Of a DNA stretch of 64,000 nt, positions 2,300-12,955 are shown piece after piece. This stretch comes from an uncultured Hyphomicrobiales bacterium (GTDB lineage Bacteria; Pseudomonadota; Alphaproteobacteria; Rhizobiales; Beijerinckiaceae): contig CAIZEI010000035.1 in NCBI GenBank assembly GCA_903931945.1, positions 1 through 64,000 of the forward strand, read 5' to 3'. Made by a program: the position numbers and the translations under genes. The notes beneath the pieces were generated by a model that saw only the letters and a program-made list of their open reading frames with translations, was not told the origin of the DNA and did no database searches. Numbering within the stretch: position 1 is the first letter of the stretch; each line of letters begins with the position of its first letter.

Positions 2300-3181
2300 T
2301 CATAATTTGACCGACCAAGTGGCCGCGTGGCGCCGCCTCTCTCCGGGCGACAGATGGATCATGGAGGGTTTTTGCGCGAGGTCTTCGACAAAATCCTCGG
2401 GGTCGCCGTATCCCGTCCAGGTTTCGATGCACAGGAATGGCGCGCCCGGACGAGACCACAAGACCAGATGGCGAAAACCTTCCATGGCCACCCGCAGCGA
2501 TTGCCCGCCCGGCCCGCGCCACTCAAGCCCCCGGCTGGCGCAATCGAGAAAGCACAGGGCTTCGCTCTCAAACGTCTGCGGCGTTAGCGTCAGCCTCCGT
2601 CCCCCTTCCAGAACAACCGGGCGCGTGCGTTTTGAAAACAATCCGCCTGGCGCAATCATCGGGATATCCTGTCGTTCTACTTCGTCAAACTGGATATCAT
2701 CTTTCTGCATTGCGCCAGAAACAAAAGGCCACCGGAACCCGGGGTGCAGGCCGAAGGCGTAGGGCATCGTCCGCTCGCCTGAATTGTTGACATATGTCTC
2801 GATTTCGAGCGCCGCTTCCCGCAACCTGTAGCTGATCGAAAGTTCAAAACTGTAAGGATATTGCGCCCGCGTGCGGGCGTTATCGCAAAGCACGAGGCGA
2901 ACAAAATCCGGCCGCCGTTCCACCAATTCAAAATCTTCGAACCGCGCGAAACCATGCAGACCCAGCGGATAAGTCTTGCCGCTGATGCGAACCTCGCCAT
3001 TGCGCGTCCAGCCGCAAACCGGGAACAGGACCGGCGCAGTCTCATCCCAGATCGCAGGATCGGGCGTCCACAGAAGATCGACGCCGCCGGCGCGCCATGT
3101 CAAAGCCTGCGCGCCATGCGTTGCAATCGCGGCGCGCGCGGCGCCGCAGACCAGTTCAATCGCGGTCGATGCGCGCGCCAT
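2300..3181 (-). CDS. aldose 1-epimerase family protein
   Basis: 293 residues, the usual length for the LacX-like, bacterial mutarotase-related branch. Visible family signatures are an internal [10 protein letters not shown] block, the LHPGFRWPF block carrying the catalytic-type histidine, and a C-terminal [14 protein letters not shown] followed by LSPGE. Members act on free or phosphorylated hexoses, catalysing anomer interconversion, and no signal peptide is seen, so it should be cytosolic. Its neighbours say little: folD follows on the same strand and a Tat-exported hydrolase is divergent. The sugar specificity is not readable from the sequence. Confidence 0.87.
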
Positions 3182-3255
3182 TTGTGTCCTGTCGATAGGT
3201 TCGCCAATCCCGCCTTTGGGTGATACCCTGATTCCACATCAACGGGGAGAACGCC

Positions 3256-4254
3256 ATGGTCGCAAAACTCAACACAGACGTCAGCCGCCGCGCCATTCTG
3301 TCGGGCGGCGCGCTCGCAGCCGCCACCGCCCTGCCCGCCTCGGCGGAGGTGAACAACGGAGAAATCGTCGCCGAAGACCATTGGGCGCAGCAGGGCGACG
3401 TCAAGCTCTATCTTTATCGCAAGCGTGTGGTGGGCGACGGCCCCGATAACAAGCCGGCGCTCTTCCTCGTCCACGGCTCGTCTTTTTCGGGCCGGGGCGG
3501 CTTCGATCTGCAGGTTCCCGGCCTGCCGAATTATTCTTTCATGGACGAATTCGCGCGTCGCGGTTTTGACGTCTGGACCATGGACTTCGAAAACTATGGG
3601 CGCTCCACGCGCGGCACAAACAACAATGCCGACATCATGACCGGCGTCGGCAATATGGAAGCTGCTTTTCCGGTGGTTGAAGCGGTCACCGGGCAAAAAT
3701 CGATTCGCGTGAAAGGCCAGTCCTCGGGCGCCATACGCGCCGGCGTTTTCGCCATGCGCAATCCGGATCGGGTTGAGCGGCTGATTCTCGACGCATTCAC
3801 CTGGACGGGCGAAGGCGCGCCTGAAATCATGCGTCGCCGCCACGATGTCGCAACCTATCAGGCGAGCCTGACGCGCACGGCGACACAGGCGACGTTCCGC
3901 GGCATCTTTACCCGCGACGATCCCTCAACCTTCGAGGCGCCGGTTCCAGACGCCCTCGCCGCCTACGAATTGCAATATGGCGATCAGGTGCCAAACGGCA
4001 CCTATATCGACATGGCCATCCACATGCCGATGGTCGATCCTGCCAAACTCCTCTGCCCGGTGATGATGCATCGCGCCGAAACCGACGGCAACGCGACAGA
4101 CGCCGAGTTGCTGGAGTTTTTCGGCAAGCTGCCCAACCCCGACAAGCAATTCGTCAAGTTGCGGGGGATCGCGCATGTCGCCGTGCTCGGCAAGAACCGC
4201 GCCCGGGTGTGGCACGCCATGGGCGCGTTCCTGACGCTGCCGGGACTGGCTTAG
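3256..4254 (+). CDS. Tat-exported alpha/beta hydrolase
   Basis: 332 residues. The N-terminus carries a twin-arginine signal (SRRAILSGG followed by an Ala-rich segment ending near ALPASA), so the enzyme should be exported folded. The body is an alpha/beta hydrolase: oxyanion-region motif LVHGSSFSGRGG, nucleophile elbow GQSSG, and a C-terminal histidine in GIAHVAVLG. A GGGGAG box lies 6 bases before the ATG. It is transcribed alone and divergent from the epimerase gene. Likely substrates are esters or amides, but no specific family name can be assigned. A second hydrolase with a Met/Ala-rich leader sits at 59337-60284. Confidence 0.87.
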   Translation: MVAKLNTDVSRRAILSGGALAAATALPASAEVNNGEIVAEDHWAQQGDVKLYLYRKRVVGDGPDNKPALFLVHGSSFSGRGGFDLQVPGLPNYSFMDEFARRGFDVWTMDFENYGRSTRGTNNNADIMTGVGNMEAAFPVVEAVTGQKSIRVKGQSSGAIRAGVFAMRNPDRVERLILDAFTWTGEGAPEIMRRRHDVATYQASLTRTATQATFRGIFTRDDPSTFEAPVPDALAAYELQYGDQVPNGTYIDMAIHMPMVDPAKLLCPVMMHRAETDGNATDAELLEFFGKLPNPDKQFVKLRGIAHVAVLGKNRARVWHAMGAFLTLPGLA

Positions 4255-4267
4255 GCCGGACGCCAAG

Positions 4268-4325
4268 GCGCGGTCCTTCTCTCGCTCCTGGCGGGAGAAG
4301 GGGCCGACAGGCCAGATGAGGGCGA
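4268..4325 (+). repeat. REP-like palindrome with tail, left copy
   Basis: A palindromic core (CCTTCTC ... GGGAGAAGG) is followed by a tail reading GGCCGACAGGCCAGATGAGGG. The same element lies inverted at 5121-5178. It sits 14 bases after the hydrolase stop and upstream of the orphan gene. It may form a transcript hairpin and act as a terminator. Confidence 0.75.
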
Positions 4326-4398
4326 GCCCAATGTTCAATCACTGATTTGATTGATCGTTTCATTCAGGACCCAACCGCGACGATAGGATCATTGAAAA

Positions 4399-5067
4399 AT
4401 GGCTCAACTGGCGGATTGGCTCGATCAAGCCATGGCAGCACAGCTGACGCCGCTGGGTTTCCAGCGGGTCCGTTTGCGCAAATGGGTTCGCGCGGAGAAG
4501 CCGCACATTCACGAGGTATTCGAGTTTTATGTTTTGAAAAGCTCTGCAAATACGCCACGCTGGGGGTTCTCCCTTCCTTTTGCGCCACGCGCCGATGATT
4601 TGTCGCTGGCTTCGAAAGGAACGCCGAAGACCGCGCGCATGGATATCTGCTACGATCCTATCTGGCGCAACGATGGCGTTGTGCCAGATTGGTGCTCGCT
4701 TTTTCATATTCCGGATTGGCAGGAAACGACCGAAGCGCGCGTATCGCGTGTCGTCGCGATGTCTGTCCAGCGCGCGCAGGATTATTTCGCCCGCGTTCAT
4801 TCGCTGGGGGACATCGTGGAAATATTCAAAGAAGAACAGGACGCGCTTGAGGCGATGCTGCGCAAGAATCCGGAAAGAAAAGTCTGGAGTATGCGCGATC
4901 TGGCATGGGGGTTGGCGATGATCGCCCGCGGAGATCCGCAAGATGGAGAAATGTTGATATCGAAATTTTGCGAAACCTTTGGCTTTGAGGCCAATGACTC
5001 ACGAATTGAGCGTGCCCGACAACGAGCTCGAACGATTTGGGACAGCAACTCCGAGGGTGCGAAGTAG
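4399..5067 (+). CDS. hypothetical protein, orphan between inverted repeats
   Basis: 222 residues, not recognised with confidence. The first 60 residues have the pattern 'LxPLGFxR...W.R......EF..LK.S...WGFSLPF', which recalls small DUF4304-like proteins, but this is only a resemblance. There is no signal peptide or membrane segment and the composition is ordinary for a soluble protein rich in Trp and Arg. It has no operon partner. It is bracketed by two inverted copies of a REP-like element (4268-4325 and 5121-5178) whose tails face the gene. The ATG at 4399 has only a weak AGGA about 10 bases upstream. Confidence 0.7.
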   Translation: MAQLADWLDQAMAAQLTPLGFQRVRLRKWVRAEKPHIHEVFEFYVLKSSANTPRWGFSLPFAPRADDLSLASKGTPKTARMDICYDPIWRNDGVVPDWCSLFHIPDWQETTEARVSRVVAMSVQRAQDYFARVHSLGDIVEIFKEEQDALEAMLRKNPERKVWSMRDLAWGLAMIARGDPQDGEMLISKFCETFGFEANDSRIERARQRARTIWDSNSEGAK

Positions 5068-5120
5068 GTCGGGCGAGGACCTTGAGTGGGATGCAGCAAT
5101 CGAAGGTTTGCGCTGTTGCG

Positions 5121-5178
5121 CGACCCTCATCCGGTCTGTCGGCCACCTTCTCCTGTTTCACAGGAGAAGGACCGCGCG
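5121..5178 (-). repeat. REP-like palindrome with tail, right copy (inverted)
   Basis: Reverse-complement counterpart of the element at 4268-4325: tail CCCTCATCCGGTCTGTCGGCC followed by the palindrome CCTTCTCC ... GGAGAAGG and then ACCGCGCG, which is also matched outside the left copy. It lies between the convergent orphan gene and the cytochrome c gene and could serve as a bidirectional terminator. Confidence 0.75.
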
Positions 5179-5188
5179 CTCGAAAAAG

Positions 5189-5545
5189 CTACTTGCTCTT
5201 TGTGACATAAAGCAACGGCAAGTCCTTGGCCTGCGGCGGCTCCGGCATGGCTTCCAGATATGCATAAATATCAGAAGCCGTTGCGTCTGGCATGATCGCT
5301 TCTTCGTAGGGCGCCATGGCGGAGGCCGGGTGGCGCAACTGATGCAGGAACTGGTCGAATGTGAGCTTGGTGCGGGATATTTGCGGTCCCGTCAGCAAGG
5401 CGCCCTGCCCGCCATAGCCATGGCATTGCCAGCAGCCATCGTTGTCGAAATGCTTTTTGCCGTTGGCAGCGTCTGCAGCCCAGGAGGAGGCTGCCGGCAT
5501 GGCGAAAAAGGCAAGCGCGGCAAGCGCGATTTTTCCAATGTTCAT
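5189..5545 (-). CDS. small periplasmic cytochrome c, partner of TPP enzyme 1
   Basis: 118 residues. A Sec signal peptide (MNIGKIALAALAFF...SSWAA) precedes a class I cytochrome c domain with one haem site, CWQCH, near residue 38. A methionine in ASAMAPY is the likely second axial ligand. It follows the TPP-enzyme gene by 11 bases and is the last gene of a four-gene minus-strand run. The paralogue at 7543-7899 has the same length and the same DGCWQCH, LTGP and FLHQLR blocks. The repeated pairing suggests that it takes electrons from, or is otherwise functionally coupled to, the neighbouring enzyme; this is inference. Confidence 0.9.
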   Translation of the reverse strand: MNIGKIALAALAFFAMPAASSWAADAANGKKHFDNDGCWQCHGYGGQGALLTGPQISRTKLTFDQFLHQLRHPASAMAPYEEAIMPDATASDIYAYLEAMPEPPQAKDLPLLYVTKSK

Positions 5546-5556
5546 GGCTGTTTCCC

Positions 5557-7494
5557 CTAGCGCGGCTGCATCACGGCGTCGATCAGCACGGGCTGACCGG
5601 ATTTCATGGCGTCAAGTCCGCGTTTGATCGCGGGCCCAAGATCCTTCGGATCGGTGATCGGTCCGATGCCCACAGCGCCATAGCCCTCGGCAATCCTGGC
5701 GTAGCTGATGTTGGGATCGCGCATGGTCGTGCCAATGACCGCGTTCTCGACGCCGCGATTGTGCCGGTTGGCCATGTGCTGGATGTGCATGACCTCCTGA
5801 TGATAGGCGCGATTGTTCTGGATTATGGTGAGATAGGGAATCTTGTGATGCGCCGCTGTCCATAACGTATGCGGCGCCATGTTGAATTCGCCATCGCCGG
5901 TGATCGAGATCGCCGTGCGTCCGCCTGCATCGCGATGCGCCAGCGCGCCGCCGAGCGCTGCAACCGGTTGATAGCCGACGCCGCCGCCGCCCGAACCGCC
6001 CATGAATTGATAGCTCTTCTCGATGGGCCAGAGCCGGTGCGGCCAGTTCGACGAAAAGCCGCCGTCCGAGAGCAGCGCCCAGTCAAGGTCCTTCACCTGA
6101 TTATAGAGTTCGGCATACATGCGCGCGGACGAAATCGGGCCGAGGTCCCATGCGACCGCAGCCTCCGCGCGGGCGCGGTCGGCCAGGCCCTTGTAGGCTG
6201 CCAGCAGCTTTTGTCCCCGCGCTTCGAACGCGGATTTACGGTCGCCGATCTCGCGCTGCACCGCCTCGATCAAATAAGGCATTGAAGCCTCGCCATCGGC
6301 AGTGATCGACACATCAGCGGCGCTGTAGCGCTGGAAATCCTGATAGTTGGCGCGCACCATCAGGTCATGCGTGGAAATCGCAATGACCTTGGCGCCGGGC
6401 CTGGCTTTTGATGCGAAGGTGCGCTCAATCTGGTCGCGAACTCGCGTCAACTGACCGAAGAGGTCCGAGGGCTCCAGCGCGAGAATGCAATCGGCCTGCG
6501 CCAGCAACGGCCCCGAACGCTCCCATTGTGAGAGATAATGGGTCGTGGGGAAATTCATGCGACCGCGATTTTCAACGACTGGCGCCTGCAACAGTTCCGC
6601 AAGCCTGACAAGATCGTTGACGCCCTTCTGCGTGCGCGCATAGCGATCCACGAGAATGACGGGGTTTTCAGCCGCGACCAGCAATTTGGCGGCATCGCGC
6701 AACGCGTTGGGATCGGCGGCGACCTGCGTGGGATGATTGAGTTTGGGGATGCTGAGTTTGGCGTTGGCCGCTTTCGTCAGCGCCATTTCCTGCAACTTGC
6801 CATCGGCGGTGATCAACACGGGCGCCTGCGGCTGCGATGTCGCGAGCTGATAGGCGCGCACAGTGGATTCAGCAAACCCTTGCAACGACCATGGATAATC
6901 GTCCCATTTGGTGAAGTCGCGCACAGTTGCGGCGCCGTCCTGCACCGTATGATACCATTCGATGCCGGGGCGGCGATCTTCGATCGGGCCAGCGCTCGCC
7001 GTAAACACGATGATCGGCACGCGGTCGCACCAGGCATTGTAAAGCGCCATCGCGGAATGCTGCGTGCCAACAGTGCCATGCACCATGGCGGCCATCGGTT
7101 TGCCCGCCACCTTCGCATAGCCATGGCCCATTCCAACCGAGACTTCTTCATGCAGGCACGTCAGCCATTCCGGCTTGCTGTTCTTGCCGTAGTTGATGAA
7201 GCTTTCCTGCAAGCCCCGGAACGTCGAGCCGGGGCAGGCCGCCATATACTCGATGCCCAGCGTCTTGCAGACATCGACCATGAAATCGGAACCGGTCTTT
7301 TCCGTCGTCAGCTTCTCTTCCTCGCCGGGCGGCTGCGTTTCAGCGGCCATTTGTGCGGCTGTCGGCGCCGCCGCCTTGGGCGCGGCGGGCGCCGTTTGCG
7401 CGCGCGCGGTCGTTTCCGCAGCGATGGTTGCGCTGCCTGCAACGGCGGCCCCTTTCAAAAACCCGCGCCTGTCGACGTTCCCTGTCCCTGACAT
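5557..7494 (-). CDS. Tat-exported thiamine-diphosphate-dependent enzyme 1 (COG0028-like)
   Basis: 645 residues from the ATG at 7494, chosen because AGGGAG lies 6 bases upstream; ATGs further upstream are poorly placed. A Tat signal (VDRRGFLKG then an Ala-rich stretch) and a Pro/Ala linker precede a full acetolactate-synthase / benzoylformate-decarboxylase-like fold. The activating glutamate lies in CLHEEVSVGMGHGYA. The TPP-Mg site is GDG at about 533-535 with the paired asparagines of IIQNNRAYHQ. These enzymes are normally cytosolic, so export is unusual; Tat would carry the folded, cofactor-loaded protein. The gene is followed 11 bases later by a cytochrome c. Substrate is unknown: a 2-oxo acid decarboxylase or cytochrome-linked oxidase is the simplest guess. 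Confidence 0.88.
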   Translation of the reverse strand: MSGTGNVDRRGFLKGAAVAGSATIAAETTARAQTAPAAPKAAAPTAAQMAAETQPPGEEEKLTTEKTGSDFMVDVCKTLGIEYMAACPGSTFRGLQESFINYGKNSKPEWLTCLHEEVSVGMGHGYAKVAGKPMAAMVHGTVGTQHSAMALYNAWCDRVPIIVFTASAGPIEDRRPGIEWYHTVQDGAATVRDFTKWDDYPWSLQGFAESTVRAYQLATSQPQAPVLITADGKLQEMALTKAANAKLSIPKLNHPTQVAADPNALRDAAKLLVAAENPVILVDRYARTQKGVNDLVRLAELLQAPVVENRGRMNFPTTHYLSQWERSGPLLAQADCILALEPSDLFGQLTRVRDQIERTFASKARPGAKVIAISTHDLMVRANYQDFQRYSAADVSITADGEASMPYLIEAVQREIGDRKSAFEARGQKLLAAYKGLADRARAEAAVAWDLGPISSARMYAELYNQVKDLDWALLSDGGFSSNWPHRLWPIEKSYQFMGGSGGGGVGYQPVAALGGALAHRDAGGRTAISITGDGEFNMAPHTLWTAAHHKIPYLTIIQNNRAYHQEVMHIQHMANRHNRGVENAVIGTTMRDPNISYARIAEGYGAVGIGPITDPKDLGPAIKRGLDAMKSGQPVLIDAVMQPR

Positions 7495-7542
7495 TGCCAT
7501 CTCCCTGATCGACTCCGCGCAAGATGCGCTCAAATTCGCAAA

Positions 7543-7899
7543 TTATTTCACGCCCATCGTCTGCAACAACGGCAGATTTTCGAGCTTGGGCGGTTCGGGC
7601 TGCGACTTCAACCAGGCATAGATATCCGCCGCCGTCTGGTCTGACAAAACAGCGGCTTCATAGGGCGCCATTTCAGACGCCGGCTGCCGCAACTGATGCA
7701 GGAACGCCTCGAACGGCAGCGCCGTGCGCGCCAGTCGCGGTCCGGTCAAAGCTGCGCCAATGCCGCCGTAATTATGGCATTGCCAGCATCCGTCGCTCAC
7801 AAAATGCGCTGCGCCATTGCGCACATCGCCCGCCGGCGCGTCCTGCGCCTGAGCCGATCCCGCGATCACAAGAGCCGCTATCATAACAAGCTTTTTCAT
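7543..7899 (-). CDS. small periplasmic cytochrome c, partner of TPP enzyme 2
   Basis: 118 residues with a short Sec signal (MKKLVMIAALVIAGSAQA) and a class I cytochrome c domain. The haem site is CWQCH and the likely axial methionine is in ASEMAPYEAA. It starts 12 bases after the TPP enzyme 2 stop, preceded by a GGGGGGAG ribosome site. It is a close paralogue of the cytochrome at 5189-5545. The next gene, TPP enzyme 1, begins about 48 bases downstream, so the four genes are probably one transcript. Confidence 0.9.
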   Translation of the reverse strand: MKKLVMIAALVIAGSAQAQDAPAGDVRNGAAHFVSDGCWQCHNYGGIGAALTGPRLARTALPFEAFLHQLRQPASEMAPYEAAVLSDQTAADIYAWLKSQPEPPKLENLPLLQTMGVK

Positions 7900-7911
7900 C
7901 GGTCTCCCCCC

Positions 7912-9849
7912 TCAACCGCGTGGTTGCATGACAGCGTCGATCAGCACAGGCTGGCCGGCCTTGACTGCAGCAACGCCTTTTTTCAATGCAGCGCCGAGGT
8001 CATTGGGATCGGTGATCGGTCCGATGCCAACTGCGCCATAGCTTTCCGCCAGTTTGGCGTAGTTGACATTGGGATCGGTCATCGTTGTTCCGATGACGGC
8101 GCTTTGCACATTGCGGTTATGCCTGTTGGCCATGCGCTGGATATGCATGACCTCCTGATGGTAGGCGCGATTGTTCTGGATGATCGCCAGCATGGGAATG
8201 CGGTGATGCGCCGCGGTCCACATGACGTGCGGGGCCATATTGAAATTACCGTCGCCAATGATCGATATCGGCAGACGCCCGCCCGCGTCCTTGTGCGCCA
8301 GCGACGCGCCAAGCGCTGCGACTGGCTCGTATCCGACCCCCGAGCCGCCGGATGAACCGATATACTGATAGTGCTTTTCCATTGGCCACAACCGGTGCTG
8401 CCAGTTGCCGGAATAATTGTTGGGCGTCGTGAAGGCCCAGTCCTCGTTCTTGACCGCCTCCCACAATTCGGCAAACAGCCTCGCGCCGCTGATGGGGGTG
8501 GAGTTCCACGTCAGGGCCGCGTCCGCGCGCGCGCGTGCTGCAAAACCCTTGTAGGTTTGCAGCATTTTTTGTCCGCGCGCATCGAACGCCGGTTTGCGAT
8601 CGCCGATCTCCTTCAGCACAGCCTCGATCAACCAGGGCATCGAGGCTTCCGGATCGGCGGTGATGGACAGGTCCGCCGGGCTGTAGCGCTGGAAATCCTG
8701 ATAATTGGCGCGCACCATCAGGTCATGCGTGCCGATATTGATGACCTTGGTCGTCTGCCGAATTTTCAGTCCGGTCTTGCGTTCGAGCTGATCGGTCATC
8801 TTGTTGAGCTGGCCGTAGATATCCTGCGGCTCCAACGAAAGCACGCAATCGGATTGCGCCAGCAGGGCGCCGCCGCGCGCAGACTGGCAAAGATAATGCG
8901 TGGTCGGCATGTTCATGCGGTTCTGCTGGTCGACCACGGGCGCCTGAAGCGCTTCGGCCAGACGCACCAGATCGTCCATGCCTTTTTGTGAACGCGCATA
9001 GCGGTCGGCAAAAATCACCGGATTTTCAGCGGCGACCAGCATCTTCGCCGCTTCGCGCAGCGCGTTGGGATCGGCCGCCGCCTGCGTGGGATGATTGAGT
9101 TTTGGAATGGAAAGTTTGGCGTTGGCCGCCTTCGAAAGCTCCATTTCCTGCAGTTTGCCGTCGGCGGTGATCAACACCGGCGCCTGCGGCTGCGAAGTCG
9201 CGAGTTGATAGGCGCGCACAGTGGATTCAGCAAACCCTTGCAACGACCAGGGGTAATCGTCCCATTTGGTGAAATCGCGCACCGTGGCCGCGCCGTCCTG
9301 CACCGTGTGCATCCATTCGACGCCGGGTCGGCGGTCTTCAATTGGGCCAGCGCTCGCTGTGAACAGAATGATCGGCACGCGGTCGCACCAGGCGTTGTAG
9401 ATCGCCATTGCTGCGTGTTGCGTGCCCACGGTTCCATGCACCATGGCCGCCATTGGCTTGCCGGCCACCTTGGCGTAGCCATGCGCCATGCCGACGGAGA
9501 CTTCCTCATGCATGCAGGTCAGCCATTCCGGCTGCTTGTTGGCGCCGTAATTGATGAAGCTTTCCTGCAAACCGCGAAAGGTCGAGCCCGGACAGGCCGC
9601 CATGTAGTCGATGTTCAAAGTCTTGCAGACATCGACCATGAAGTCGGAGCCGGATTTCTCCTCGGTCAGTTTTTCGGCCTCGCCGGGATGGTCATTTTCT
9701 GAAGCGAGTTGAGCGGCGCTCGGGGGCGCAGCTTTGGGGACGGCAGGCGCCGTCGCCTGCGCGCGCGCCTCTCCAGCCACGCCCGCGCCGCCCGCGACAG
9801 CCGCGCCCTTCAGAAATCCGCGCCGGTCCAAATTCGGCTTGCCTGACAT
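7912..9849 (-). CDS. Tat-exported thiamine-diphosphate-dependent enzyme 2 (COG0028-like)
   Basis: 645 residues, exactly the length of enzyme 1, from the ATG at 9849 with AGGGGGCGG just upstream; a longer reading from 9918 lacks such support. The Tat signal is LDRRGFLKG. The activating glutamate is E115 in MHEEVSVGMAHGYA, and the TPP-Mg site is GDG at 532-534 followed by IIQNNRAYHQEVMHIQ. Most of the chain is near identical to enzyme 1, including the block MVHGTVGTQH. Differences concentrate in the middle domain and around the Trp-rich region before GDG, which could alter the substrate range. It is the first gene of the four-gene run; no promoter was identified. Confidence 0.88.
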   Translation of the reverse strand: MSGKPNLDRRGFLKGAAVAGGAGVAGEARAQATAPAVPKAAPPSAAQLASENDHPGEAEKLTEEKSGSDFMVDVCKTLNIDYMAACPGSTFRGLQESFINYGANKQPEWLTCMHEEVSVGMAHGYAKVAGKPMAAMVHGTVGTQHAAMAIYNAWCDRVPIILFTASAGPIEDRRPGVEWMHTVQDGAATVRDFTKWDDYPWSLQGFAESTVRAYQLATSQPQAPVLITADGKLQEMELSKAANAKLSIPKLNHPTQAAADPNALREAAKMLVAAENPVIFADRYARSQKGMDDLVRLAEALQAPVVDQQNRMNMPTTHYLCQSARGGALLAQSDCVLSLEPQDIYGQLNKMTDQLERKTGLKIRQTTKVINIGTHDLMVRANYQDFQRYSPADLSITADPEASMPWLIEAVLKEIGDRKPAFDARGQKMLQTYKGFAARARADAALTWNSTPISGARLFAELWEAVKNEDWAFTTPNNYSGNWQHRLWPMEKHYQYIGSSGGSGVGYEPVAALGASLAHKDAGGRLPISIIGDGNFNMAPHVMWTAAHHRIPMLAIIQNNRAYHQEVMHIQRMANRHNRNVQSAVIGTTMTDPNVNYAKLAESYGAVGIGPITDPNDLGAALKKGVAAVKAGQPVLIDAVMQPRG

Positions 9850-10021
9850 TTCCGCCCCCTGATTGAATTTCGTTCCCTGGCGCGACTTTGAACTTTTGGC
9901 GAGGCCGGCGCAACCCAAATTCGCAGGACCGTAAACTGGCGCGGCTCAAGCTATTGCCACCGCCAGCGCGCTCGCGGTACTCTGCGCTGGCGCCGCCACA
10001 TTTTTGACATGCTGTGGCACG

Positions 10022-12955
10022 ATGCGAAGATTGACTATCGCAACTGGTTTTTGGCGGGCGCGGCCCGGAAATTTACGGGGTCCCGTGCGTCGGCTGCTGT
10101 GTACGCTTGTTTATGTTTTGATGGCCATGAGCGGCTTGAGAACCGCGGGGGCTGTTGAATCCTATCGAATCCCGCCCGACTCGCCAGCCATCGACCTGAC
10201 CAACGTGGTTTCCCGCAATTTCTCGCAGGGCGACAAATTGCAGGTGTCCACCGCGCCCGACGCAGGCGGCGTCGTCCGGCGCATCGAGGTGGACGCAGCC
10301 AAGCCGGGCAGCCAGCCAGCCTGGATTGTGTTTGCGCTTACCAACGATACCGATGACCAGATGGAGCGTTTGCTGGTGGCGCCGCATTACCGGCTTGTCG
10401 GATCGGGCGTCGTAACGCCGGATCTGGGCTCCGTCCGCGTCACCGCAATCACCGCCAGTCAGGGATTTCCGCCCGAATCCGAAGAAGGCGACGACGCCGA
10501 CATTTTTCGGCTGACGCTCGATCCTGGCACGACGGTCACCTATGTCGCTGAAATGGCGACGCCCAATCTCCCGCAACTCTATTTATGGGAGCCTGACGCC
10601 TACAAGGACAAGGAGGCGAGCCTCACCCTCTTCAAGGGCATTGTCATTGGCGTCGCGGGCCTGCTGGCCATGTTTCTGACTGTCATTTTTGTGGTCAAGG
10701 GCGCGGTCATTTTTCCCGCATCCGCCGCTCTCGCGTGGTCTGTGCTGATCTATGTCTGCATCGACTTCGGCTTCTGGCAGAAAATATTCGGCTCCACCGA
10801 CGGCGCCGACCGGGTCTGGCGCGCGGGGGCTGAAACCTTCCTGGCGGCGACGCTATCGGTCTTCCTGTTCGCCTATCTCAACCTTTCAAGCTGGCATGTG
10901 CGCGCGTCTTATCTGGTGGGGGGCTGGCTGCTGTTGCTCGCCTGCCTTCTGGCGCTTGCCTTCTACGATCCAGCCTCTGCAGCGGGCGTTGCGCGTATCT
11001 CGCTCGCAACGGTCGCTGTCGTCGGTTTCATCCTTGTGCTCTATATGGCGGTGCATGGCCATGACCGGGCGATCATGCTGATTCCGACATGGTTCCTGCT
11101 GTTGATGTGGGTTTGTGCGGCGGGCGCCACTGTCACCGGATTTTTTACCAATGATCTCGTGTCCCCGGCGCTGATCGGCGGCCTCGCCCTGATCGTGATG
11201 CTGATCGGCTTTACAATCATGCAGATCGCGTTTGCGGGAGGAGGGCTGGCGGCGGGCGTTATTACAGACGCCGAGCGAAAGGCTCTCGCGCTCACTGGCT
11301 CCGGCGATATTGTGTTCGACTGGGACGTCACGGCGGACCATCTGTATGTCAGCCCCGACGCCGAGCAACATCTCGGCCTCAAACGCGGATCGCTGGGCGG
11401 GCCCGCATCGAGCTGGTTCGACTTTCTTCATCCCTTCGACCGCGACCGCTATCAGGCCTGTCTCGATACGGTGCTGGAGCAACGCCGCGGTCGGATCAAT
11501 CTCGATCTGCGATTGAGGGGCTCGGACGGGCATTACCTCTGGTTTCGCCTCAAGGCGCGCCCCGTCGTCAATTCAGAAGGCGATGTCGCGCGCGTTATCG
11601 GCGCCATGGCGGATGTCACCGAATCCAAACACGCCGAGGAACGGCTATTGCAGGATTCAGTGCATGACAATCTGACCGGTTTGCCACACCGCGAACTTTT
11701 CTTCGATCGTCTGGACTCTGTCATACGACAGGCGGCAGGCGGCGGTCCAAAACCGGCGGTCCTCGCCATCGATCTCGACCGGTTCCGCGACATCAACATC
11801 GCAGCAGGCGTCGCAGCGGGCGATTCAATCCTTCTCACGGCCTCGCGCCGGCTGGGCCGCCAGATCAAGCCGCAGGATACGCTGGCCCGCATTTCCAGCG
11901 ACCAGTTCGGCATTATCGTCACATCGACGCAGGACGTCGCCGCCATCATGCAACTGGCCGACACGGTGCGGCGCGCGCTGGCGACGCCGGTCACATTCAA
12001 CGAGCATGAGATTGCCGTTACCGCGTCCGTTGGCATGGCGCTCTACGATTCGCAGAACCACCCCAAAGCCGCCGATATCTTCAAAGACGCCGAGGTTGCG
12101 CTGTCGCAGGCCAAACGCCTTGGCGGCAATCGCGTCGAAGTGTTCCGCGCGGGGATGCGGACACAACGCACAGATCGGCTGGCGCTTGAGGCCGATCTGC
12201 GAAAGGCCCTGTCGCGCGGCGAAATGAAAGTCTATTTCCAGCCAATCGTGCGGCTGGACGATCGCACCATTGCGGGGTTCGAGGCCCTGCTGCGCTGGGA
12301 CCATCCCAAACATGGACGCCTCGGCCCCGCTGATTTTATTCCGCTGGCAGAAGAGTCCGGCCTGATCGTCAACCTGGGGCTTATGGCGCTTGACCGCACA
12401 GCGCGCGAACTTGCAATCTGGCAACGCGCGCTCGACGTCGATCCGCCGATTTTCGCCAGCGTCAACATTTCCTCACGGCAGTTGCTGCGCCACGATCTGC
12501 TGAACGACGTTAAAACGGTTCTGACCAGATATAGTGTGAAACCCGGTTCGCTGAAGCTCGAACTCACCGAAAGTCTGGTGATGGAAAACCCCGAATACGC
12601 CGCCCAGATGCTGACACGCATTCGCGATCTTGGAGCCGGGCTTTCGCTCGATGATTTTGGCGCCGGTTATTCGTCCCTGGCCTATCTGCAGCGCTTCCCG
12701 TTTGACACGATCAAGATCGATCGCATGTTCGTGCATCCCACCGAAACCGGAGAGCGACCGACGCTGCTGCGTTCGATTGTATCTCTGGCGCATGATCTGG
12801 GTATGGAAGTGGTCGCCGAAGGGGCCGAGACGGAAAGCGACGTCATCGAGCTCTATCAGCTTGGTTGCGAGTTCGCGCAAGGATTTGCGTTCGGTCAGCC
12901 GATGTCGGCGCTCGACGCCCGCAAACTGCTCGGCGCCGATGTGAACGCCGCCTGA
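10022..12955 (+). CDS. membrane PAS / degenerate GGDEF / EAL cyclic-di-GMP protein
   Basis: About 977 residues; the start is uncertain (TTG at 10004 or ATG at 10022, neither with a clear ribosome site). Order: signal segment, a periplasmic beta-rich domain of about 150 residues, seven or eight membrane helices (about 205-405) in a 7TMR-DISM-like layout, a PAS domain (about 415-540), GGDEF domain, EAL domain. The GGDEF signature is replaced by SSDQF near residue 624, so cyclase activity is not expected. The EAL domain keeps EALLRW, the ELTES glutamate, [10 protein letters not shown] and VVAEGAE, as in active c-di-GMP phosphodiesterases. It is transcribed alone and its periplasmic ligand is unknown. 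Confidence 0.92.

Follow-up and report, generated by a model that had tools for sequence, protein, structure and literature searches.

Tandem pairs of genes for putative Tat-exported ThDP enzymes and small c-type cytochromes in an uncultured Hyphomicrobiales bacterium: candidates for a periplasmic dehydrogenase

Gene arrangement

The window analysed here is a stretch of 64,000 nucleotides from an uncultured Hyphomicrobiales bacterium, the genome of which is available as 5.0 Mb in 203 contigs. Four genes, of which TPP-B is the first, occupy positions 5189-9849 on the minus strand in the order TPP-B, cyt-B, TPP-A, cyt-A (Table 1). The stop codon of TPP-B is separated from cyt-B by 12 nt and that of TPP-A from cyt-A by 11 nt, and the two pairs lie 48 nt apart. 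A re-check of the four open reading frames (ORFs) confirmed the coordinates, lengths and spacing that had been given in a preliminary description of this DNA. A promoter and terminator scan gave results near background.

Table 1. Features of the two gene pairs (positions in the window).
Feature	Position	Strand	Description	Evidence
TPP-B (P0004)	7912..9849	minus	Tat-signal ThDP enzyme, 645 aa	three ThDP domains above Pfam cut-offs, catalytic residues conserved
TPP-B signal region	9751..9849	minus	putative twin-arginine signal region, DRRGFLKGAAVAGG..., end approximate	Pfam TAT_signal 19.9 bits, cut-off 22.7
cyt-B (P0003)	7543..7899	minus	118 aa, Sec-type leader and monohaem cytochrome c, CWQCH	Cytochrome_CBB3 35.5 bits, cut-off 27
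TPP-A (P0002)	5557..7494	minus	Tat-signal ThDP enzyme, 645 aa	Pfam, AlphaFold model
TPP-A signal region	7396..7494	minus	putative twin-arginine signal region, DRRGFLKGAAVAGS..., end approximate	Pfam TAT_signal 17.0 bits, below cut-off 22.7
cyt-A (P0001)	5189..5545	minus	118 aa, Sec-type leader and monohaem cytochrome c, CWQCH	Cytochrome_CBB3 35.7 bits, cut-off 27

Both enzymes have the N, M and C TPP_enzyme domains of Pfam above the cut-offs. Their PYR, TH3 and PP domains, together with Glu116 and the DG..NN residues, place them in COG0028, i.e. the ThDP POX-decarboxylase superfamily. Each cytochrome has a hydrophobic leader and a single CWQCH motif, with an M-A-P-Y motif further downstream that presumably supplies the axial Met.

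TPP-A and TPP-B are 76% identical, cyt-A and cyt-B 60% over 96 aa. The paralogues of the window (dN 0.17, dS 1.07) are under purifying selection, judging from their sequences. A related locus, L009, also carries two modules; the second of these is the counterpart of TPP-A and cyt-A, the first that of TPP-B and cyt-B. As enzyme and cytochrome pair alike, the modules of the window and of L009 were duplicated as units. Two further loci (L036 and L057) have three modules in tandem.

The putative Tat signal

A DRRGFLKGAAVAG stretch is found at the N-terminus of each ThDP enzyme of the window. The preliminary description called the Tat signal clear. The TAT_signal model matches both enzymes only below its cut-off (Table 1), and our assignment relies on RRGFLKG, on a hydrophobic stretch and on the recurrence of the motif in relatives. 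Residues 1-34 of TPP-A have a pLDDT below 50 in the AlphaFold model.

We note that Tat assignment was made by motif. The RRxF pattern overlooked two proteins of the same genome, C54 (RRKL, the fifth Tat-ThDP gene) and C91 (RRGLL, the third module), and one relative (L070, 991 bits) was placed in the Tat-A group, the Tat-signal clade of the window enzymes, without a readable RR. In four of the 38 rows counted as Tat-less, an RR occurs upstream, in sequence that is untranslated or an unlikely part of the protein; no signal peptide accompanies it, and these rows stayed in the Tat-less group. The conservation of the motif in all 53 rows of alignment A2 is no evidence, since the motif was the criterion by which 51 of the rows had been added.

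The sub-threshold Pfam scores would also fit a misread N-terminus, in which case the enzyme would be cytoplasmic and the cytochrome a passenger. This is very improbable in our view, given that 99 of the 104 ORFs of the family, counting fragments, contain RRxF, that no comparable leader was seen in the Tat-less relatives and that c-type cytochromes work outside the cytoplasm.

Distribution and persistence of the pairing

In one scan of genome contigs, 201 loci encoding relatives were confirmed, and the best 80 of these were kept. These come from many Alphaproteobacteria and Acidobacteria, and from one beta-, one gamma- and two 'Delta'proteobacterial genomes. Most are metagenome-assembled genomes (MAGs); Bradyrhizobium dw_411 is one relative-bearing genome that is not marked as such. 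Among near genomes the family was found in 25 of 61 at E <= 1e-120, all in the window's own genus, i.e. in 25 of the 37 genomes searched there (own genome included) and in none of the 24 that belong to other genera within the order. In an even draw across the phylum the Tat clade was present in one genome of 398, namely the window's own, the second match (G296) being Tat-less. In the phylum of an acidobacterial member, 6 of 199 genomes had a family match at E <= 1e-200, the centre genome included. Since no more than 3 or 6 candidates were scored for each genome in the even draws, members may have been missed in these figures. The distribution of the family is patchy.

Two records illustrate the arrangement outside the window. 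On plasmid p3 of Caballeronia zhejiangensis, WP_244808613.1 is followed after 8 nt by the c-type cytochrome WP_244808614.1; in this annotated record the enzyme is called merely a 'thiamine pyrophosphate-binding protein'. In Novosphingobium sp. KACC 22771, which is unannotated, the ORFs have the same order as in the window pair.

The preliminary description had made its reading depend on whether the adjacency recurs in other genomes, and it does. Of 116 testable Tat-A members, 111 are followed by a CxxCH ORF that lies on the same strand at a distance of 20-330 nt, compared with 1 of 37 among the closest Tat-less relatives (distinct, C-terminally complete members of the fetched loci, six fragments having been dropped). 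The single Tat-less positive (L156/L174) owes its cytochrome to an adjoining pair of another lineage, Tat-B. The five Tat-A exceptions are of different kinds. L025 has no CxxCH ORF of at least 60 aa in the approximately 16 kb fetched, and the sole one in L022, of 70 aa and at a distance of about 6 kb, is probably spurious. In L139 the cytochrome is present on the opposite strand, in L143 the enzyme is the first of two ThDP genes with one cytochrome between them, and in L221 the CxxCH motif is at 457 nt. A CLGCH ORF upstream of one Tat-less gene (L161) was left out of the count. No fused ThDP-cytochrome protein was flagged among the ORFs examined for Tat leaders and cytochromes.

The Fisher p-value of this contrast (2e-28) is inflated, as kin are treated as independent and the tree contains only two independent contrasts. 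The strength of the pairing therefore lies in its persistence and not in the p-value. A mirror-tree comparison of 98 enzyme-cytochrome pairs gave r = 0.68, relatedness being uncontrolled, and the highest of 500 permutations was 0.09.

Phylogeny and a second lineage

In a quick LG+G4 tree of 80 rows, Tat-A forms one clade (SH-aLRT 100) that is nested among Tat-less proteins, the nesting having SH-aLRT values of only 90 and 84. The six Tat-B rows of the tree form a separate clade (SH-aLRT 100). Two changes are required for Tat on this tree. The quick tree carries a long-branch warning between Tat-B and the C54 protein. Tat-B consists of C83 (L179/L214), a distant Tat-ThDP enzyme of the window's genome that scores 194 bits against the family profile, and six relatives. 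A small cytochrome is encoded upstream in 7/7 of these and a further one downstream in 5/7.

The window's genome has 22 ThDP N-domain matches, five of which have a Tat-like leader. A cytochrome gene adjoins four of these five; the remaining one stops about 30 nt short of a contig edge. The other 17 matches, two of them contig-edge stubs, have no CxxCH ORF within 330 nt downstream.

Genomic neighbourhood

As regards INDEPENDENCE of context, no conserved neighbour was seen apart from the pair itself. Greedily called ORFs of 64 loci were clustered (E 1e-12, 28% identity, half coverage), and the ThDP gene (59 loci) and the cytochrome (31 loci as called) were alone in being widely common, the next-largest neighbour clusters comprising at most 7 loci. 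No larger conserved operon was found in this way.

From 242 neighbours picked, 231 were shorter than 900 aa and 174 were given to Pfam; 57, mostly short or doubtful ORFs, were excluded by hand. The tallies that follow refer to 25 of 62 families (A3) and 25 of 67 families among the matches listed. TctC was found in 5/86 neighbours in A3 and 1/88 in A4, luciferase-like proteins in 5/86, and FAD_binding_3 in 1/86 in A3 and 5/88 in A4, which is at most a hint of catabolism. A PQQ dehydrogenase gene adjoins the third module of the window's genome (L119), and other modules adjoin TctC receptors and FAD or luciferase-like monooxygenases. The PQQ family accounts for 2/88 neighbours in A4 and is absent from A3 among the 25 of 62 families listed.

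Active site and fold

The catalytic positions were compared in 102 full-length members. At position 116 the activating Glu is present in 101 and replaced by Asp in one; Asp534, Gly535, Asn560 and Asn561 are invariant. The preliminary description had reported intact Glu, GDG and NN motifs. The GDG is indeed present in both window enzymes, and across the clade its first Gly is not conserved, i.e. only the DG is retained.

Ser90 (99/102), His139 (102/102) and His319 (101/102) are conserved as well. In HMMER alignments with BFD chains, Ser90, Glu116, His139 and His319 correspond to BFD Ser26, Glu47, His70 and His281. An excerpt of PMC6028569 states that Ser26, His70 and His281 bind the substrate and that Ser26 hydrogen-bonds its carboxylate. 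According to the same excerpt, BFD accepts many changes at these three positions, so the conservation of Ser90, His139 and His319 is only suggestive of the substrate.

Glu567 is invariant (102/102); the position is Asp in 22/24 Tat-less relatives and Pro in 6/6 Tat-B proteins. It aligns with residue 479 of E. coli Gcl in a register check. Table 1 of PMC13327070 places AcHACL E493, PDC E473, POX Ile480, BFD Leu461, Gcl Ile479 and an AHAS Val at this position, where the Glu of PDC and AcHACL protonates the carbanion, as the available part of that paper describes. Glu567 would thus count against simple oxidation and suit aldehyde formation, and it makes a straightforward repeat of the pyruvate oxidase reaction less likely. 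It is to be added that BFD also protonates and yet has Leu there.

The AlphaFold model of TPP-A (mean pLDDT 86.5, pTM 0.85) has fold matches to BbmA, 2-hydroxyacyl-CoA lyases (HACL), benzaldehyde lyase and BFD. A G-M-x-G segment in the central domain of E. coli PoxB, IlvI and Gcl, which we take to be the FAD-binding loop, is deleted in the alignment with the Tat-ThDP enzymes, and an internal flavin is therefore unlikely. An FAD oxidase like PoxB was rejected on the same grounds. No Amino_oxidase or other FAD domain was found among the Pfam matches, the domains over cut-off being those of ThDP enzymes.

Since Glu567 sits at a protonating position, non-oxidative decarboxylation and aldehyde oxidation both retain some probability. 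In the former case, the enzyme would be a periplasmic 2-oxo acid decarboxylase or C-C lyase in which Glu567 protonates the carbanion and the aldehyde is released, and the cytochrome would serve another periplasmic dehydrogenase acting on this aldehyde, e.g. a PQQ or an aldehyde dehydrogenase. Glu567 at the PDC E473/AcHACL E493 position, the full BFD-like residue set and the PQQ dehydrogenase gene beside the third module all agree with such a reaction. Nevertheless, we think it unlikely: no dehydrogenase family was seen to recur among the neighbour families listed, the PQQ family being as rare as given above; the cytochrome follows the ThDP gene in 111/116; and the Tat-less relatives, which mostly have the shorter acid Asp, lack a cytochrome.

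In the latter case, the enzyme would be a ThDP aldehyde:cytochrome c dehydrogenase. Glu567 would deprotonate the aldehyde-ThDP adduct, i.e. the reverse of the protonation in PDC, and the cytochrome would oxidise the carbanion. An invariant Glu567 beside a redox partner fits this, as does the L119 neighbour, since the products of PQQ dehydrogenases can be periplasmic aldehydes. Ser90 speaks against it and favours a 2-oxo acid: it is kept in the Tat clade whereas 21/24 Tat-less relatives have Ala, and in BFD the corresponding residue forms a hydrogen bond with the carboxylate of the substrate (PMC6028569, in part). We hold an aldehyde to be a rather unlikely substrate. This is a sub-case of the dehydrogenase proposed below with another substrate class, and the two judgements overlap.

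Comparison with known families

Neither enzyme reaches the cut-off of a curated NCBIfam model among the matches listed. The best match, near full length, is NF006203 (PRK08327; 241.7 and 261.8 bits, cut-off 456), a thiamine pyrophosphate-requiring protein family with no stated function. The BFD model NF005485 gives 135 and 134 bits against a cut-off of 493. BFD nevertheless provides the best PDB matches by sequence (1bfd, 4q9d) and shares the fold, the counterparts of Ser26, Glu47, His70 and His281 and the absence of the FAD loop, at 23% identity to 1bfd in the fold alignment. It differs in having Leu461 in place of Glu567; moreover, BFD is cytosolic and, unlike the Tat-ThDP pair, has no known cytochrome partner.

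Pyruvate oxidase and PoxB belong to the same superfamily, have no Tat signal, and carry Ile (POX) or Val (PoxB) at the Glu567 position. Pyruvate oxidase is FAD-dependent and oxidises the carbanion, and PoxB feeds respiration. 2-Hydroxyacyl-CoA lyase and PDC are a lyase and a decarboxylase without a known cytochrome partner; the actinobacterial lyase and bacterial PDC have Glu at the carbanion-protonating position, as the enzymes of the Tat-A clade do.

The closest likeness in gene arrangement is found among flavoproteins. NicA2 and Pnao with CycN also combine a Tat-signal cofactor enzyme with an adjacent gene for a Sec-type cytochrome c, and their clades, like the ThDP family, hold relatives without either feature (PMC12224317, in part). 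They contain flavin, belong to an unrelated family and have had cytochrome reduction measured; for the ThDP pairs, which share the Tat signal (by motif) and the adjoining cytochrome c gene, reduction would be expected by analogy. In the available part of PMC12224317, Tat plus an operonic CytC gene predicts a cytochrome-using dehydrogenase among flavoprotein amine oxidoreductases, kinetics confirm many of these, and flavoproteins with Tat that lack a CytC gene reacted with O2.

Proposed function

Because Tat-plus-CytC flavoproteins behave in this way, we propose by analogy, and consider it probable, that each pair encodes a two-gene periplasmic ThDP:cytochrome c dehydrogenase. The points in its favour are the adjacency (111/116 versus 1/37), the second lineage, the two changes for Tat on the tree, the active-site residues, the missing FAD loop, the duplication of modules as units, the flavoprotein precedent and the fact that no third gene family was seen to recur widely; against it count L022 and L025, which have no credible cytochrome in the approximately 16 kb fetched, the sub-threshold Pfam score for Tat, the small number of independent contrasts and the reaction of Tat-only flavoproteins with O2, in addition to Glu567. 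The preliminary description had suggested export and electron delivery to the cytochrome, and both are predictions that comparative genomics and the flavoprotein precedent support (PMC12224317, in part). Its further suggestion, that the enzyme would oxidise either a 2-oxo acid or an aldehyde, agrees with the BFD-like site without an FAD loop, and Glu567 is unexpected in a plain 2-oxo acid oxidase.

In the proposed dehydrogenase, the ThDP enzyme would take up ThDP and Mg2+ while folding in the cytoplasm, Tat would export it in the folded state, and the cytochrome would travel via Sec and receive its haem in the periplasm. The enzyme would join ThDP to a small carbonyl substrate and form the C2alpha-carbanion/enamine. 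The substrate would most likely be a 2-oxo acid, bound through Ser90, His139 and His319, or possibly an aldehyde deprotonated by Glu567. Two electrons would pass singly to the dedicated cytochrome c and not to FAD, lipoate or an Fe-S cluster. Finally, the acyl-ThDP would be hydrolysed to the acid and the electrons would enter the respiratory chain. Transfer from a ThDP carbanion to a one-electron acceptor has precedents in ferricyanide assays and in the radical intermediates of PFOR.

A wider reading, which we offer tentatively as falling somewhat short of probable, is that the pairs represent a class, as yet without a name, of ThDP:cytochrome c oxidoreductases that are flavin-free and in which electrons would go from the enamine straight to a periplasmic c-type haem. 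Such a class would have been invented at least twice, each time by export of a ThDP enzyme and its pairing with a dedicated cytochrome.

Significance

ThDP enzymes are textbook cytosolic proteins, and their known electron acceptors are FAD, lipoamide and Fe-S clusters. Among the matches listed from the open-access full-text literature, none described a ThDP enzyme that is exported and has a cytochrome as its partner, in agreement with the preliminary description, which knew of no characterised enzyme with this arrangement. We regard the superfamily and the design of export plus cytochrome as known, and their combination as new.

The pairing spans Acidobacteria and several proteobacterial classes. 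If the proposed function is true, a flavin-free ThDP enzyme that is exported and served by a cytochrome of its own would open a new electron route from carbonyl substrates to respiration. It would also offer a simple two-protein system in which the one-electron oxidation of the ThDP enamine could be followed by visible spectroscopy, and it would allow bacteria to oxidise organic acids without importing them.

Variation of the partner cytochromes and copies of the module

A short tail behind the haem domain, ending in I/L-P-L-L, is common to the partner cytochromes (78 out of 98, using a loose pattern), and this tail is a candidate docking peptide. Some partner cytochromes, at positions 6740-7360 of locus L230 and in the cytochrome ORF of L084, carry two haem motifs instead of one. 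The ThDP-cytochrome module is also found in tandem runs of three, in loci L036 and L057. The genome of the window itself contains a third copy (L119), in which a gene for a BD-FAE-type esterase lies upstream of the module and a PQQ dehydrogenase gene follows its cytochrome directly, in convergent orientation.

Features discussed in the text
Feature	Location	Strand	Remark
Alpha/beta hydrolase	window 3256-4254	+	Abhydrolase_1 over Pfam cut-off
7TM-PAS-GGDEF-EAL protein	window 10004-12955	+	divergent from module
Cytochrome C-terminal tail (example)	window 5189-5260
Third module copy	L119, contig C91, about 3044-8846
Another Tat-ThDP enzyme	L175 (genome G463), ThDP ORF 5944-7867

Genes flanking the module

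The window hydrolase has a Tat-like leader of its own (SRRAILSGG) and is convergent to the module, with an unassigned 222-residue ORF between them. Since Abhydrolase_1 was found in 3 of 88 neighbour proteins of relatives, in one of the two sets checked against Pfam, a link between hydrolase and module is not clear.

Other Tat-ThDP enzymes

No CxxCH ORF was found in the 700 nt downstream of the L175 enzyme; an ORF about 1.6 kb upstream resembles, by eye, PQQ beta-propeller proteins. A distant second Tat-ThDP lineage with small cytochromes on its flanks occurs in the same genome as the window (L179/L214, contig C83), in L215-L219 and in L174. In its active site Ala replaces His139 (equivalent to BFD His70) and Pro replaces Glu567 (the carbanion-protonating position of PDC and AcHACL), and therefore, judging from these residues, this lineage probably catalyses a different reaction from that of the module enzyme.
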